Below are positions 14,317-20,430 of a stretch of 20,430 bases of DNA, one piece after another (the stretch's first letter is position 1; every line of letters starts with the position of its first letter). Under the pieces are notes generated by a model. The model had not been told where the DNA came from, ran no database searches, and saw nothing but the letters and a program-made list of their open reading frames with translations. Source of the stretch: a virus; the IMG/VR virus record IMGVR_UViG_3300042922_000280, positions 1-20,430 of that record. One strand, written 5' to 3'. The position numbers and the translations under genes are program-made.

Positions 14317-14457
14317 ATGAGCACCATCCCGAACCCCGAGCACGTGACCGTGAAGGACGACGGCCAGACCGAGAAGTACTGGGACCCCGCATGGGGCGAC
14401 CAGGGCGCCGCCCCGGAGGGCGTCAGCCGGCTCGATCCCGAGGGCGGCGAGGGCTGA
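14317..14457 (+). CDS. Small protein of unknown function (46 residues)
   Basis: ATG 14317 with a strong GAGGAGGA site (14305-14312). The product starts MSTIPNPEHVTVKDDGQTEKYW and is acidic, with WDPAWGDQG in the middle and a Gly/Glu-rich end (DPEGGEG). It has no membrane segment or Cys. Its stop overlaps the endolysin start by one base (TGATG at 14455-14459), so it is likely coupled to it. Short genes at this place are common in actinophages. I do not recognise the family. Confidence 0.7.
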   Translation: MSTIPNPEHVTVKDDGQTEKYWDPAWGDQGAAPEGVSRLDPEGGEG

Positions 14458-15302
14458 TGCCCGGTCCCTACCTCCGGCCCGTCGAGAACCGGATCTCGTC
14501 CGACTACAGAGACCACCGAAATCGCCGCCCCCCGTCGTCGAACCCTGGCACCGACTTCGCCTGCCCGAAGCGGACACCCGTCGTCGCGCCGATGGACTCC
14601 ACGGTCGTGCGCGTCTCGCAGGTGGCCGACCAGCCTCAGGGGCGCCACGTCTGGCTGCGCGGCCACGACGGCGCGGAGCTGCAGATGATGCACTTCGACG
14701 CCCCTCAGGTGTCCGCCGGTCAGCGCTTGAGCGCAGGCCAGCAGATCGGACTCTCCGGCAACACCGGCAACTCGACCGGACCGCACCTCCACGTCTCGCT
14801 CTGGTACCAGGGCCGGACGCTCGACTTCATGGACTACGTCACGACCGGTCGACCCGCAGCGGCGGCCGTAGAGAAAGGGTTCCTCATGGCACTCAGCGAT
14901 TTCCAGCAGGCGCAGATGTACGACGCGCTCGTTGCCCACTCACCCAGCGGCGACTACTACAAGACTGATGCCGCGATCAACGACAACCGAGCGCTGATGG
15001 GGAACGTCCTCACTGCCCTCGCGAGCATCGCGGCGGGCAACATCACGTTCCCGGGGGCGGGCTACAACGCGTTCGTCGCCGTCGTCAACACGATCCGGGA
15101 GGGCAACGGCCAGGCGCCGGTCGAAATCGACGAGGAAGCGCTCGCGAAGGGCCTCGCCCCGGCGCTCGCTCCCTTGCTCCTGACTCAGGGGTTCGGGGAC
15201 ATCGACGACGCCACTGTCGAGCGCCTGGCGAAGGCGGCAGCGGACGAGCGCGACCGCCGGGACCGCGAGCGCCTCGCGATCGGCACAGAGCCGTCGAGCT
15301 GA
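14457..15302 (+). CDS. Endolysin with M23 peptidase domain
   Basis: 281 residues, ATG 14457 overlapping the previous stop. The M23 (LytM-like) domain spans about residues 8-128: the segment NPGTDFACPKRTPVVAP, a catalytic-type His79 in MMHFDAPQVSAGQRL, GQQIGLSGNTGNSTGPHLHV with His110 and His112. It should cut peptide crosslinks in peptidoglycan. The usual first zinc ligand (HxxxD) is Asn29 here, with Asp33 kept. No signal peptide is present, so release by a holin is expected. Residues 144-281 form a separate helical domain of unknown fold that may bind the wall; it begins at an in-frame ATG (14886) with a purine-rich site in front. Its neighbours are three membrane proteins, as in a lysis cassette. 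Confidence 0.85.
   Translation: MPGPYLRPVENRISSDYRDHRNRRPPSSNPGTDFACPKRTPVVAPMDSTVVRVSQVADQPQGRHVWLRGHDGAELQMMHFDAPQVSAGQRLSAGQQIGLSGNTGNSTGPHLHVSLWYQGRTLDFMDYVTTGRPAAAAVEKGFLMALSDFQQAQMYDALVAHSPSGDYYKTDAAINDNRALMGNVLTALASIAAGNITFPGAGYNAFVAVVNTIREGNGQAPVEIDEEALAKGLAPALAPLLLTQGFGDIDDATVERLAKAAADERDRRDRERLAIGTEPSS
14871..14888 (+). promoter_or_regulatory. Possible internal translation start in the endolysin
   Basis: GAGAAAGGG at 14871-14879 sits six bases before an in-frame ATG at 14886-14888 (residue 144), exactly at the boundary between the M23 domain and the C-terminal region. Initiation here would give a separate 138-residue C-terminal protein. Some endolysins of other phages make a free binding-domain subunit this way. 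The placement is suggestive but unproven. Confidence 0.4.
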
Positions 15303-15778
15303 TGCCGTACCAGGCCGCGAACTTCCCGATCGGTGGCCGCGAGGCGTACAGCGGCCTGCTGTGGAAGTACTCGATCATGGCGGTGTATTCCGCGGCGTCC
15401 TCACTGCTCGGCGCGACGACAGTCGGGCGAGCAACCGACCCGTTCTATGCCCGCCTGTTCCCGGCGCTGCTGTTCCTCGCCTGCTGCGCCGCCCTGGTGG
15501 GCGTCGTGGTGTCCCGATGGACGGCGCGAGTCTGGGTCGAGTACGTCGGCACGGCCGCTCTGCTCGCCGGCATGGCCGGGTACGCGATCGCCATCGGGTA
15601 CGTGGGGATCGCGATCGATCACGACTGGTCCCGACTGCCGCCAGCGATCCTTCCAATCGCGTTGATGGTGTTCCCGGTCATGCGGCTGCGGAACATCCTG
15701 CGGACGGTGGCGGCATGGCGTGCGGCTCGAATCGCTCGAGCGTCGCGCGAGGAGGAAACGGGAGACGCAGATGCCTGA
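15302..15778 (+). CDS. Four-helix membrane protein of the lysis cassette
   Basis: 158 residues, ATG 15302 overlapping the endolysin stop by one base. Four hydrophobic segments are visible near residues 24-43, 52-71, 79-105 and 113-128, with a charged cytoplasm-like C-terminus (ASREEETGDADA). The N-terminus (MPYQAANFPIGGREAYSGLL) resembles membrane proteins found beside endolysin genes of Microbacterium-type phages, from memory of the pattern. It could be a holin, a holin partner or a lysis regulator; the four-helix form is larger than typical holins. The next start lies within its last codons (8-base overlap). Confidence 0.75.
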   Translation: MPYQAANFPIGGREAYSGLLWKYSIMAVYSAASSLLGATTVGRATDPFYARLFPALLFLACCAALVGVVVSRWTARVWVEYVGTAALLAGMAGYAIAIGYVGIAIDHDWSRLPPAILPIALMVFPVMRLRNILRTVAAWRAARIARASREEETGDADA

Positions 15779-16590: not shown

Positions 16591-18354
16591 GTGGCGATCA
16601 TCGACTATTTCCCGGCGACGCTCGCCGCAGACGGTAACGGCAACACCGTGAAGAACGCGGCCGCTCAGGTGTACGCCCTGGCCGACACGGCCCTCTCCAC
16701 GCCGCTCGCCCTCACCGACTTGCAGGGCGTCCCGATGACCGAACTCCGGTCGTCGGACCTCGGCATCTTTCCGGCGTTCCGCGTCGTGAATCAGACCATG
16801 CAGATCGTCGTGGTGTCCGGCTCGCTCCGCACCCCGATGACGTCGCTGTCTGTCTACGCGAACGCTGCGGAGGCCGCGGCTGCGATGGCCTCGGGTAACG
16901 CGGGTGCCGCCGCTGCCAGCGCGCAGGCGGCAGAACTCGCTCGTCAGAACGCGACGGCGGCGCAGGCTGCCGCCGTCGAAGCTGCGGCGGCAGCGGCGGC
17001 GGTCGGGAGCACGAACGACACCATCACCGAGGGCCTGCTCAAGAACCCGGCCTCGAAGACGGCGACGGCACTAGATGGCGTCATCGATGAGGCCACCGCA
17101 AGTAAGGCGAACGCCGCAGATGTTTACTCCAAGACGGTCACAGACCGAGCCTTCTCGCCCAAGGGCCTGCCCGCCTACGCCTCGGCGCGCACGGGCGCGT
17201 ACGACCGGGACCGGTCTGTCTACAACGCGAAAGCTGAGCAGCTGCGCCTCGTGCGCGCGCAGCTCGCGAAGGTGAAAGCCGGGACCGGCGACCTCATAAT
17301 CGGCACGCTGGGCGACTCGACGTTCGCCGGGTCGCAGGCGGTCCCCGGTCAGTCGACGGCGCCCGATCAGTTGCGCCGCATCCTCGCCGACCGCGGCTAC
17401 CGCTCCAAAGGCGAATTCGTCGCGATCAACAAGAAGTTCAACGGGGCAACGCCTGACTTTGGCGATAACTCAGGGCGCATCGTGGCCGGGGCTGGCTGGG
17501 CACGCGTGTTCGACTACTCCAACATCGTGCAGGGTGCAGCGTCAGCAGGCGCACTCACGGTGACGCCGGGAGTCGCGGGCACCATCGCTCGGGTCTACTT
17601 CAACCGGAACGCGGGCTCGGCATTCACTGTGGAGATCGACGGCTCTGTCGTCGCTACTGTCACGCTGAGTTCCCCGTCGCCCGCGACCGCCACGATCACG
17701 AGCGGAACGGGAACACTGACCGCTTCGACGCAGATCAGCATGTACGAGATCACCGGCCTGTCGAACGCGATCCACGCCGTCAAGATCACCCCACTCAACG
17801 GTAACGTCGTGCAGCTCTACGCCGTGGAGGTGTCCGATGCTCTGCCCGGAGTGCGCCTGATCAACGTCGCGATCGGCGGCACCACCGCTTCGCAGCTCAC
17901 CGCCAACCAGTTCGCCCAGGTGAACATCCTCAACCAGTCGGTGATCCGGCCGCATCTGCTCTTGCTCTGCTCGCAGATCAACGGGCTCTCGCGGCCGACC
18001 GAGTCGGGCAACCCCGTCTCGGTCGCGAAGTACCAGACCGATGTCGTCGCGCCGTACAAGACGAAGGTGCTGGAGGCGCTCACGGCGTTCGAGACGCCGT
18101 CGCCAGCCCCGGCCCGTGTGATCGTGACTGCCAACCCGGTGCAGGGCCTCGACGCCGAGTCGGACACATATCCGCTCACCACCGATGCGCTCTATCAGGT
18201 CGCCGATGCGAAGGACATCCGGCTCATCGATCACCTCGCGCGGTGGTCGTGGACGGAATACAACAATGCGGGCTTGATGGGTGATCCGTCGCATCCGAAC
18301 CCCGCGGGGTATTACGAGAAGGCGCTGATGATGTACTTCGGTCTCGAGCTCTGA
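16591..18354 (+). CDS. Tail fibre/spike with SGNH esterase domain
   Basis: 587 residues, GTG 16591 with GAGAGGAG upstream. Layout: an N-terminal region (1-90) that probably attaches to the virion; an Ala-rich helical stalk (92-138); and an SGNH hydrolase domain from about 230. Catalytic blocks seen: GDS with Ser243 (IIGTLGDSTFAG), a Gly pair at 429-430 (AIGGTT), an Asn at 464 (QINGL) and DPSHPN with Asp565 and His568. A beta-sandwich insert (about 318-415) resembles carbohydrate-binding modules found next to such esterases. It probably removes acyl groups from cell-surface glycans during attachment. Placement after the lysis genes is unusual for a fibre but seen in some actinophages. Confidence 0.8.
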   Translation: MAIIDYFPATLAADGNGNTVKNAAAQVYALADTALSTPLALTDLQGVPMTELRSSDLGIFPAFRVVNQTMQIVVVSGSLRTPMTSLSVYANAAEAAAAMASGNAGAAAASAQAAELARQNATAAQAAAVEAAAAAAAVGSTNDTITEGLLKNPASKTATALDGVIDEATASKANAADVYSKTVTDRAFSPKGLPAYASARTGAYDRDRSVYNAKAEQLRLVRAQLAKVKAGTGDLIIGTLGDSTFAGSQAVPGQSTAPDQLRRILADRGYRSKGEFVAINKKFNGATPDFGDNSGRIVAGAGWARVFDYSNIVQGAASAGALTVTPGVAGTIARVYFNRNAGSAFTVEIDGSVVATVTLSSPSPATATITSGTGTLTASTQISMYEITGLSNAIHAVKITPLNGNVVQLYAVEVSDALPGVRLINVAIGGTTASQLTANQFAQVNILNQSVIRPHLLLLCSQINGLSRPTESGNPVSVAKYQTDVVAPYKTKVLEALTAFETPSPAPARVIVTANPVQGLDAESDTYPLTTDALYQVADAKDIRLIDHLARWSWTEYNNAGLMGDPSHPNPAGYYEKALMMYFGLEL

Positions 18355-18360
18355 CTCCCG

Positions 18361-18435
18361 CTGCGATCGCGGTGCCTCGCCTTCGATATGGTTCCCTCAT
18401 GGGGAAACGCTGGCGGTGGGTCATCGCGATCGCAG
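18361..18435. repeat. 11-bp inverted repeat flanking the putative moron promoter
   Basis: CTGCGATCGCG at 18361-18371 is the exact reverse complement of CGCGATCGCAG at 18425-18435. The copies flank the putative -10 box and the start codon of the next gene. The core GCGATCGC is itself palindromic and common in GC-rich DNA, so this may be chance. If real it could be an operator. Confidence 0.35.
18387..18392 (+). promoter_or_regulatory. Possible -10 box for a leaderless promoter
   Basis: TATGGT at 18387-18392 ends seven bases before the ATG at 18399, the spacing expected if transcription starts on the A of the start codon. Leaderless messages are common in actinobacteria. No TTGACA-like -35 box is seen 16-18 bases upstream and no ribosome binding site precedes the start, which fits leaderless initiation but keeps confidence low. 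Confidence 0.35.
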
Positions 18436-19124
18436 TGGTTGTCGGGATCATCGGTGTCGCCGGATTCTTCGGAGGACGGCACCTGATCCAACAGTCTCGG
18501 CTGGCGGAGTCCTGCACAAAGGTGCAGGAGTCGCTCGAGACGCAACGCGACGAGCGGGTCAGCATCGAGGCGGAGCCAGCACAGCTCGTCGTCATCGGCG
18601 ACTCCTACGCTCAGGCCATCGACACGCCTGTTGTTGAGTCCTTCCCGTACGTCGTAGCAGCAGGCCTGGACATGAACGCTTCGGTGGATGCCTACGGCGG
18701 CAGCGGCTACGTAAACCCGGGCCCGTGCGGAGACGGGAACAGCTTCGTCGACCGGGTCGAGCGCAACGGCATCCCGCCCACCGCAGAACTCGTGATTGTT
18801 CAAGGTGGCGTCAACGATGCCGACCTCTACGGGGACCGCCTCCGGACCGCAGCTTCGGACGTCTTGATGTCAGTTGCGGACGCTGCGCCAGCGGCTCGCG
18901 TCGTGGTTCTCGGCCCAGCATCAGTACCCGGCTCTACCGCGGAGAACGTCGCTCGCGCTGACGCGATCCTTCGGGATGCGGCGGAGGCCGCTGGTTCTGA
19001 GTATGTCTCGACGCTGGATTGGGAGTTCGATCTTGCTGCGGATCAGATCCACCCTTCGAGGCGGGGGCAGGCGGATTACGCCCGGCTACTTCTCGACGCG
19101 GTTGGGAACGGCTCGCTCAAATGA
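18399..19124 (+). CDS. Membrane-anchored SGNH hydrolase (moron gene)
   Basis: 241 residues from ATG 18399; GTG 18372 would add nine residues but has no ribosome site. A single membrane anchor lies at residues 7-23 after a basic start (MGKRWRW), so the rest should be outside the cell. SGNH blocks: VIGDSYAQ with Ser69, GGSGY with Gly101, QGGVND with Asn139, and DQIHPS with Asp215 and His218. Cys39 and Cys110 could form a disulfide. Substrate is unknown; esters on wall or surface glycans are likely for this fold. Base composition and codon choice differ from the virion genes, with more A and T. The stop overlaps the next ATG, so the two form one operon. Confidence 0.78.
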   Translation: MGKRWRWVIAIAVVVGIIGVAGFFGGRHLIQQSRLAESCTKVQESLETQRDERVSIEAEPAQLVVIGDSYAQAIDTPVVESFPYVVAAGLDMNASVDAYGGSGYVNPGPCGDGNSFVDRVERNGIPPTAELVIVQGGVNDADLYGDRLRTAASDVLMSVADAAPAARVVVLGPASVPGSTAENVARADAILRDAAEAAGSEYVSTLDWEFDLAADQIHPSRRGQADYARLLLDAVGNGSLK

Positions 19125-19804
19125 CAGATGAGGCAGCCGAGAGTCGACGCTTTGTCCAGGGCCGCGGAGTGATTCGAACAGGGGCGGAGCCCGGCGATGT
19201 CACTCTGCGCATGGAGATGGATGGCGAGCCCGTGCGCTCCATTGATATCACCGATGAGGCAGCTAGTCAGGTCGCTGATCTGCGATCTCTCATCATGGAT
19301 CTCGACTATTCTCGCCGGCTCGCGGAACTGCACCCGCGGCTGCCTCTCACGGTCGATGAGCCGGGTGCGACGGAAGTGTCATACGAGAACGCAGTCACTG
19401 ATGCCGATGACATCCGGGCAGCCGTAATGGAGTCGGCGGTAATCGCGTACGGCCGATGCTTCGCATCCGGGCGGTCCGCGCTCGTGAAGCAGCATCGACG
19501 TCGCATCGGCGAGTTCGTGGAACAGCTCGACCCCGACGATCGTGTCGCGCACGAGCGCGTCATCCAAGTCCGAGATCAACATGTCGCGCACCGTGTCGAC
19601 AGGCTCATGCACCCCGTGAAAGTGGCGCGCTTGACCACACAGGACGGGACTCACGTGGGTATCGGCGTACTTGCCGCGACCAAAGTGGGTGATGGCGTGA
19701 CGCTCCCGAGCATCGTGCGCCTCGCTGGCAAGCTCTTGCCAATCCTGCGAGATGTCCTGGACGAGGAGACTCACGCCCTGGACAGCATCTACCGCGGCTC
19801 GTAG
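19121..19804 (+). CDS. Helical protein of unknown function with HEPN-like R-x5-H motif
   Basis: 227 residues, ATG 19121 overlapping the SGNH stop (ATGA). No membrane span or signal is visible, so it should be cytoplasmic. Residues 94-160 are strongly helical and contain VIAYGRCFASGR, then VAHERVIQVRDQHVAHRVD. Arg151 and His157 give an R-x5-H pattern, which falls in the Rx4-6H range of HEPN ribonucleases, and the RDxHxAH context is typical of that four-helix fold. The N-terminal 90 residues look mixed and are unrecognised; a beta-rich stretch (THVGIGVLAATKV) comes before a C-terminal helix. A role in defence or exclusion is conceivable. The gene ends 24 bases before a strong terminator. Confidence 0.7.
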   Translation: MTDEAAESRRFVQGRGVIRTGAEPGDVTLRMEMDGEPVRSIDITDEAASQVADLRSLIMDLDYSRRLAELHPRLPLTVDEPGATEVSYENAVTDADDIRAAVMESAVIAYGRCFASGRSALVKQHRRRIGEFVEQLDPDDRVAHERVIQVRDQHVAHRVDRLMHPVKVARLTTQDGTHVGIGVLAATKVGDGVTLPSIVRLAGKLLPILRDVLDEETHALDSIYRGS

Positions 19805-19828
19805 CCCAGCAAAGCAGGAACTTAGTCC

Positions 19829-19864
19829 AGCCCCCGACGGCCTCTCAGGAGGCGGTCGGGGGCT
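19829..19864. terminator. Strong hairpin terminator between converging genes
   Basis: Arms 19829-19838 and 19855-19864 (AGCCCCCGAC and its complement) pair over ten bases; after a G-G mismatch, five more pairs (19840-19844 with 19849-19853) close a 4-base loop TCAG. The rightward side is followed by TGTTTCGG, a weak T-rich start, so it should end the moron transcript. It can also fold on the leftward transcript, whose last codons lie inside it. Confidence 0.85.
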
Positions 19865-20165
19865 GTTTCGGCGTTCGGACGGATGGCGTGCTGTGCGAGC
19901 CGCGGTCGCGTCGCTCCTGGCCCTCGCGGATGAACGGCACCGCACCGGGAAACGCATCGAGCAGGGCGGAGGTGAGCGCTGCGTTCTCGGGGATGCCGTG
20001 GTACCCGACCCACCGGCCGACCTCCGGGTAGAGGATGTCGGGGCGGCCGCCGGCGAGCTGCCGGACTTCGTCGATGATCGGCTGCACGTCTCGCGTGTAC
20101 TGGTTGCGGCCCATCGCGGCGCTGAGCGAGATGCTCAGCAGGACGTCGGGGTGCAGGACGCTCAT
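19845..20165 (-). CDS. Leftward protein of unknown function (106 residues)
   Basis: The start at 20165 (MSVLHPDVLLSISLSAAMG) overlaps the stop of the gene upstream by four bases (ATGA), so the pair is coupled. The conserved-looking core reads MGRNQYTRDVQPIIDEVRQL and EVGRWVGYHGIPENAALTSAL, with a basic, Ser/Pro-rich tail. It has no membrane span. The pattern resembles small uncharacterised actinophage or actinobacterial proteins; I do not know a function. The stop codon (19847-19845) lies in the loop of the terminator hairpin. Longer in-frame reading upstream to 20333 is possible but would overlap the other gene fully, so the shorter start is preferred. Confidence 0.65.
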   Translation of the reverse strand: MSVLHPDVLLSISLSAAMGRNQYTRDVQPIIDEVRQLAGGRPDILYPEVGRWVGYHGIPENAALTSALLDAFPGAVPFIREGQERRDRGSHSTPSVRTPKQPPTAS

Positions 20166-20430
20166 CGCTGGATGATGGCGAGCAGCTGGTGCCCCTCGGG
20201 GACCTTGCCCCGTAGGGTCTCGATGTCGTCGGCTTCGATCTCGGTCGGCTCGTCGCGGCGCGCGAACTGCCCGACCGTGAAGAACTCCGTCGTTCCCGGC
20301 TGGCGTCCCATGTGCGCCTGCGTCAGCTCCCACCCGGCGGGCGCCTCGAGCTGCTCGTGGATGGCCGCAATGCCCTCACCCCGCACCTCGCGGCTGCGGG
20401 TTTCGACGGGGCGGATCAGTCCGATGAACA
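20162..20430 (-). CDS. Leftward protein of unknown function (5' partial)
   Basis: The frame stays open to the right edge of the window, so the start is outside it; a GTG at 20386 is an internal alternative (74 residues). The visible product includes GLIRPVETRSREVRGEG, then AAIHEQLEAPAGWELTQAHM, FFTVGQFARRDEPTEIEADD and GHQLLAIIQR. The AGWELTQAH segment recalls small DUF4177-like proteins that contain a GWELV motif, but this is only a resemblance. It belongs to a leftward operon converging on the moron. No catalytic motif was recognised. Confidence 0.65.
   Translation of the reverse strand, partial: FIGLIRPVETRSREVRGEGIAAIHEQLEAPAGWELTQAHMGRQPGTTEFFTVGQFARRDEPTEIEADDIETLRGKVPEGHQLLAIIQR

Follow-up and report, generated by a model that had tools for sequence, protein, structure and literature searches.

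A membrane-anchored SGNH hydrolase recurrently paired with a virion SGNH gene in actinophages, a candidate receptor-editing exclusion gene

Actinophages carry small SGNH hydrolases, predicted to be anchored in the membrane of the host, whose genes lie in nearly every locus found beside the gene of a virion SGNH protein. Here we describe one such gene (gene 1) in a 20.4-kb fragment, from IMG/VR, of a phage of a soil actinobacterium (the window, by which we mean this whole stretch of DNA), together with gene 2, a HEPN-like gene that overlaps it, and the loci of its relatives. We propose, giving the reading about even weight, that gene 1 encodes a receptor-editing ecto-esterase for superinfection exclusion or lysogenic conversion, expressed from its own promoter, and that gene 2 encodes an independent HEPN defence. 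In the open-access literature searched, no description of the anchored and virion SGNH pair was found.

Gene order at the locus

The tape-measure gene of the window is related to those of Microbacterium and Curtobacterium phages. The features that bear on the gene pair are as follows.

14391-15302: M23 peptidase gene, after the tail genes
15302-15778: small gene with weak matches to unknown-function and membrane-protein families
16591-18354 (+): tail protein with an SGNH-hydrolase domain, the virion partner (Pfam; identity to Arthrobacter phage tail esterases)
18387-18392 (+): TATGGT, a TANNNT-type −10 element in leaderless geometry, 6 nt before the ATG
18399-19124 (+): gene 1, membrane-anchored SGNH hydrolase of 241 amino acids (Pfam, motifs, predicted structure)
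19121-19804 (+): gene 2, HEPN-like protein of 227 amino acids with R151-DQHVA-H157 (Rx5H motif)
19828-19865: hairpin flanked by convergent genes, probably a terminator in both directions (folding z −3.4; tail limited to TTT)

Gene 1 starts 44 bp past the tail gene, on the same strand as the late genes, and shares with gene 2 the four bases ATGA (19121-19124); the two reading frames and the four-base overlap described in an earlier note on this DNA are as it gave them. The hairpin forms the boundary between the gene pair and the leftward genes. The leftward gene past it (19845-20165, −) shares 44% identity with Footloose gp29, the immediate upstream neighbour of the anchored SGNH gene in Footloose, and the next (20162-20428, −) is 42% identical to a protein of unknown function from Microbacterium phage Min1. 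There is no integrase in the window, which is a 20-kb contig fragment.

Gene 1 is a predicted membrane-anchored SGNH hydrolase

Gene 1 matches PF13472 above the curated threshold (E 6e-11; 43.5 bits against a cut-off of 32.9) and has an N-terminal hydrophobic transmembrane helix at about residues 8-26. Ser69, Gly103, Asn139 and His218 are invariant across 14 aligned proteins, and Asp215 is present. The AlphaFold2 model, built from the 14-sequence alignment (pLDDT 87.6), consists of a long N-terminal helix and an SGNH domain, the latter superposing on 7bxd with the three-layer SGNH fold (Z 22.6, rmsd 2.2, 178 aligned); carbohydrate esterases and thioesterases are among its further structural neighbours, many at Z 18-22, a fold ranking that cannot separate the substrates of SGNH proteins. 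Helix, family match and model bear out the identity that the earlier note had given to gene 1. The nearest named family is that of the Rv0518 GDSL lipase (NF045548), the closest in NCBIfam (E 7e-15) and, like gene 1, a single-domain GDSL/SGNH protein, but gene 1 reaches 55 bits against an equivalog threshold of 300 and is not a member. PADLOC gave no match for gene 1 or gene 2.

SGNH domains also occur in transferases. In those of the OatA/PatB type, the block II glycine is replaced by serine or asparagine, and an AT3 or MBOAT protein is the partner (PMC12148441). Gene 1 retains Gly103, the probable block II glycine as assigned from the sequence pattern rather than by superposition, and has no AT3 gene nearby in the window. 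Because this residue is kept, as it is in SGNH hydrolases, where OatA and PatB replace it, a hydrolase is favoured over a transferase.

The neighbouring tail gene is SGNH esterase-like

The earlier note missed that the preceding tail gene itself encodes an SGNH esterase-like protein and that an anchored and a virion SGNH gene recur as a pair. The tail protein matches PF13472 (E 8.5e-6, below the Pfam cut-off) and PF00657 (E 7e-4), and is 33% identical over 384 amino acids to Arthrobacter phage tail esterases, a relative of which, Popper gp30, scores above the PF13472 cut-off and also contains an Mtd_N domain. Its SGNH residues are GDS241, GG429-430, N464 and DPSH565-568. A good model for this gene is provided by the SGNH tail fibres of the same fold, G7C gp63.1 and the Klebsiella prophage receptor-binding proteins 164_08 and 174_38; these are virion proteins only, in contrast to the gene 1 product, for which a membrane-bound, non-virion location is predicted. 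Esterase activity has been shown for SGNH tail proteins from temperate Klebsiella phages (PMC13123978), and the tail protein of the window probably trims the bacterial surface during attachment.

Anchored and virion SGNH genes recur as a pair

Gene 1 and its relatives served as queries in a search of phages and viral contigs that took no account of tail genes, and the neighbourhoods were then read. A small anchored SGNH protein was found in 29 loci, in 27 of which a virion SGNH gene lies at most 0.9 kb away; the 27 include near-identical loci (DirtyBoi, Eyes and Budski) and several related pairs, and so amount to about 22-24 groups, and the virion SGNH matches fall below the Pfam cut-off in the window, TripleJ, AbbyDaisy, L009 and L013. 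That so many loci are paired, although tail genes played no part in the search, supports the exclusion reading. The virion gene is within 60 bp of the anchored gene in 21 loci, sometimes overlapping it by 4-11 bp, and the paired genes are convergent, tail-to-tail on opposite strands, in 26 of 27, the window being the sole same-strand case. As for the two unpaired loci, L042 has a tail-like gene in which an SGNH domain is unrecognised, and in L055 no tail SGNH gene was found nearby. One locus (L009, 4806-6282, +) has tandem anchored SGNH genes, one transmembrane-anchored and one a lipoprotein, facing a single virion SGNH gene.

The anchored proteins match one another at 37-533 bits and show no detectable match to their own tail gene in any locus but Kukla (13.5 bits), so the pairing does not stem from recent duplication; for gene 1, an origin as a recent duplicate of its tail SGNH gene is ruled out in the same way. 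Judged by their sequences, the anchored SGNH proteins are a family of their own. The tail and anchored SGNH proteins are too diverged to show a common substrate.

In annotated phages, the anchored gene is often near, and on the same strand as, an integrase and/or repressor gene and opposite to the late genes. This lysogeny-proximal placement holds for most annotated relatives; the window is a fragment with no integrase, and the Gordonia phage Belphegor is an exception. The earlier note had named homologues found only as virion proteins, or strict co-transcription with the structural genes and no effect on superinfection, as outcomes that would count against it. The first is not borne out, the nearest relatives being small anchored proteins that mostly lie opposite to the late genes; strict co-transcription, like late lytic expression, is possible in the window, because only there does the anchored gene have the direction of the late genes.

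Variants of the slot and lifestyle of the relatives

Two Arthrobacter phages have further glycan genes at this position. Kukla gp31 (L022, 3645-4799, +) is an AT3 acyltransferase whose gene immediately precedes that of the anchored SGNH protein, the two together resembling a split OatA/OafA; among the loci searched, AT3 was found only in Kukla. Elesar gp31 (L030, 5928-7442, −) is a Wzy_C (O-antigen ligase-like) membrane protein in the position that the anchored SGNH gene has in Popper, it shares the leaderless GTAGAAT promoter element with the anchored SGNH genes, and the tail esterase of Elesar is related to those of Popper and the window. Anchored SGNH, AT3 and Wzy_C proteins are all expected to act on surface glycans, and the presence of such genes in the same slot supports exclusion.

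The Microbacterium phages Shocker and Jacko encode a virion esterase of the Footloose type but lack an anchored partner, and the stretches of them examined have neither integrase nor repressor annotated, which fits the exclusion reading. Belphegor (L020, 4797-6769) is a counter-example: the SGNH pair is inverted inside the head-tail operon, and neither an integrase nor a repressor is annotated in this phage. Lysogeny is therefore not required, the pair seems to be passed on as one unit, and exclusion may also operate in lytic infection. The reverse control with Shocker and Jacko, which starts from virion esterases, is small, other phages having been returned by one query only.

Promoter, terminator and base composition

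The TATGGT element at 18387-18392 lies exactly 6 nt before the gene 1 ATG, the sole such case among the 1,073 ATG and GTG codons of the window. Upstream of gene 1 there is no sigma-70 consensus and no Shine-Dalgarno sequence. In mycobacterial promoters, the common −10 motif is TANNNT, placed 7-12 bp before the start site, and leaderless transcripts are abundant in mycobacteria (PMC3898074). Across the DNA of the 27 loci (553 kb counting both strands), TANNNT stands 6-7 nt before the start codon in 9 of 27, gene 1 included, against a background of 0.64% of all ATG and GTG codons, and 10 of the 11 copies of GTAGAAT are on the strand of the slot gene and precede it by 14-72 bp, statistics that are inflated by related loci and for which some start codons were picked by hand (for example, in BrayBeast, L039, L043, L048 and L058). 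Gene 1 is thus probably expressed from its own leaderless promoter, a form in which the promoter suspected by the earlier note survives, although no sigma-70 consensus accompanies it. A sequence resembling GGnCTTATnGGCC, a possible operator, recurs in the upstream region of the anchored genes at L032, L025, L003, L020, L041 and L030.

The hairpin downstream of gene 2 is strong against shuffled sequences, as the earlier note's terminator would require, but its tail is TTT only, which is why a U-tract scan does not call it. The lower GC content that the earlier note reported also holds for the pair as a whole (63.6% against a mean of 68.5% in 1,406-bp windows, the seventh lowest of 381), although the 60-mers quoted there are extremes of the distribution. 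Third-position GC is 71-74% in the pair and mostly 80-93% in most structural genes.

Gene 2 is a divergent HEPN-like protein

The HEPN RNase signature is Rx4-6H, with a polar residue (Asn, Asp or His) after the arginine, at the end of the third helix (PMC3710099). In gene 2, R151DQHVAH157 lies at the end of a modelled helix (138-161), and the Rx5H motif is kept in all seven intact bacterial relatives, the residue after the arginine being Asn, Asp or His. The HEPN-like character that the earlier note assigned is upheld by this motif; by Pfam the assignment is weak, with HEPN_AbiU2 below its cut-off (PF18734; E 0.044, 13.7 bits against a gathering score of 26.8). The structural model is poor (pLDDT 55); its best structural neighbours, at Z 8.2-8.4, are the integron HEPN protein 3jrt (Z 8.4) and HEPN toxins, with 7ae6 at Z 8.2, which is suggestive only, as Z of about 8 is within reach of unrelated helical bundles by chance, and Foldseek gave no significant match. 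In its Rx4-6H motif, predicted helical bundle and phage location, gene 2 resembles HEPN_AbiU2 and solo HEPN defence RNases such as Tha; it differs from HEPN_AbiU2 in scoring below the Pfam cut-off and in having an RNase role that is predicted only. We consider it probably a divergent HEPN-type protein and a predicted RNase-type effector. No inhibitor or antitoxin gene was seen with it.

Single-sequence searches of phages, viral contigs and genomes returned no close relatives of gene 2. A plasmid search found one Rhodococcus copy, with an in-frame stop, and profile and alignment searches found distant relatives in Chloroflexi and in Acetobacter and other genomes of its phylum. A HEPN profile run over all collected loci matched in the window only. 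The earlier note had put gene 1 and gene 2 forward as a pair to be sought in other genomes; no SGNH and HEPN pair besides that of the window was found in phage contigs, and the recurring partner is the virion SGNH tail gene. The HEPN gene is therefore probably a separate, locus-specific add-on, predicted to be an abortive-infection RNase. In other loci (L008, 8037-8546, −; L036, 3627-4475, +), the gene directly before the anchored SGNH gene belongs to a shared family of about 170 amino acids that has no family match and carries an Rx4H-like motif, which in Popper gp33 reads MRCSFLHQG. Popper gp33, which adjoins the anchored gene, was considered as a second HEPN-like neighbour and rejected, being recognised by no library.

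Proposed function

On the basis of these observations, we suggest how the pair might act. The N-terminal helix would anchor the gene 1 product in the host membrane with the SGNH domain facing the cell wall, where the enzyme would strip ester groups, probably O-acetyl, from a wall or surface glycan. The SGNH tail protein of the phage would recognise this same glycan and deacylate it at adsorption. Such editing, whether in a lysogen (the window phage may itself be temperate) or during infection, would keep later phages of that receptor class from adsorbing; it is because receptor editing would stop such adsorption that we regard gene 1 as a candidate exclusion or conversion gene. Gene 2, whose translation the ATGA overlap couples to that of gene 1, would probably supply an independent second defence by abortive infection. 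The earlier note's two-layer exclusion or defence cassette thus stands as a surface enzyme with a coupled cytoplasmic HEPN-like gene, and falls as a recurring unit; the exclusion idea plausibly holds for a different reason, the pairing with a tail gene.

Phage-driven O-acetylation of the surface blocks superinfection in other phages (PMC13123978). As cited in the same paper, conversion of the D3/Sf6 type is like our proposal in that a temperate phage alters the ester decoration of a receptor glycan and so prevents superinfection. It differs in that an acetyltransferase adds to the O-antigen of lipopolysaccharide, whereas here a predicted hydrolase would act on an actinobacterial envelope and has a virion partner of the same fold.

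Alternative explanations

The position of gene 1 on the late-gene strand, close behind the tail gene, together with the Belphegor pair in a phage with no annotated integrase or repressor, would also suit an anchored SGNH enzyme made late in lytic infection that strips the receptor from the dying cell and spares the progeny re-adsorption to debris and infected cells, a receptor-destroying enzyme comparable to viral neuraminidase. We think this unlikely, if worth keeping in mind: in 26 of 27 loci the anchored gene runs counter to the late genes, many with their own promoter-like element, and phages with no annotated lysogeny genes have Footloose-type virion esterases that lack the partner. That gene 1 is instead a virion or lysis component would accord with the 'head decoration' and 'minor tail protein' annotations of relatives in phages; such labels were probably taken over from larger fusion proteins (phrog_9703 has 502 amino acids), and an N-terminal transmembrane helix or lipobox, small size and relatives opposite to the late genes make this reading very improbable. 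Gene 1 could also serve lysogenic conversion with no bearing on phage exclusion, as a secreted Rv0518-type lipase that helps the host to use or remodel lipids. The closest NCBIfam family points that way, at a score far below its cut-off, but a lipase of this kind would not explain why a virion SGNH gene is almost always next to it, in the Belphegor structural operon too, and we regard it as highly unlikely.

Were gene 1 the SGNH half of an acyltransferase, it would, with an AT3 or MBOAT membrane protein of the host or phage, add acyl groups to a glycan rather than remove them. The AT3 gene adjoining the Kukla SGNH gene and weak matches to PF19040, 'SGNH fused to AT3' (E 0.01 and 0.03), are consistent with this; set against the confinement of AT3 to one searched locus and the probable block II glycine in 14 of 14 aligned proteins, which OatA and PatB replace, they leave it quite improbable. 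It is rather doubtful, too, that the two genes form one sensor-effector system, in which the membrane protein would sense adsorption and the cytoplasmic HEPN RNase would kill the cell. The 4-bp overlap, the division into one membrane and one cytoplasmic product, and the triggering of the HEPN system Tha by tail proteins (PMC11087260) are all compatible with it. So are the known two-gene prophage defences of that layout (PMC7542560, PMC6426606): the lysogen-expressed actinophage pairs Sbash gp30/31, CarolAnn gp43/44 and Butters gp30/31 each have one membrane and one cytoplasmic product. Those pairs are, however, described there as RexAB-like with a four-pass membrane protein, no SGNH or HEPN domain is mentioned there, and the HEPN family of gene 2 stands beside an SGNH gene in no other locus and has its relatives in bacterial genomes.

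Implications

We return to gene 1 as a receptor-editing esterase. The anchored and tail genes are paired in about 26 other phages as well, which suggests that the surface is edited against further phages by the infected or lysogenic cell itself. With somewhat less than even confidence, we suggest that actinophages hold a matched pair: a virion esterase for entry and, tail-to-tail with it, a non-virion, membrane-anchored esterase of the same fold that has its own conserved promoter and edits the same receptor from inside the host. This would be a general exclusion module whose anchored member can be swapped (for Wzy_C) or joined (by AT3), and which in the window has been turned round and placed in an operon with a HEPN effector.

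To our knowledge, few Microbacterium, Arthrobacter or Gordonia phages have a known receptor, and the mechanisms by which receptors are altered for exclusion consist mainly of acylation, glucosylation and receptor-blocking proteins. Should the anchored enzyme edit the target of the tail enzyme, each pair would name the chemistry of a receptor, an ester on a wall glycan, and would give a simple adsorption test, and surface deacylation would join the receptor-altering mechanisms of exclusion.
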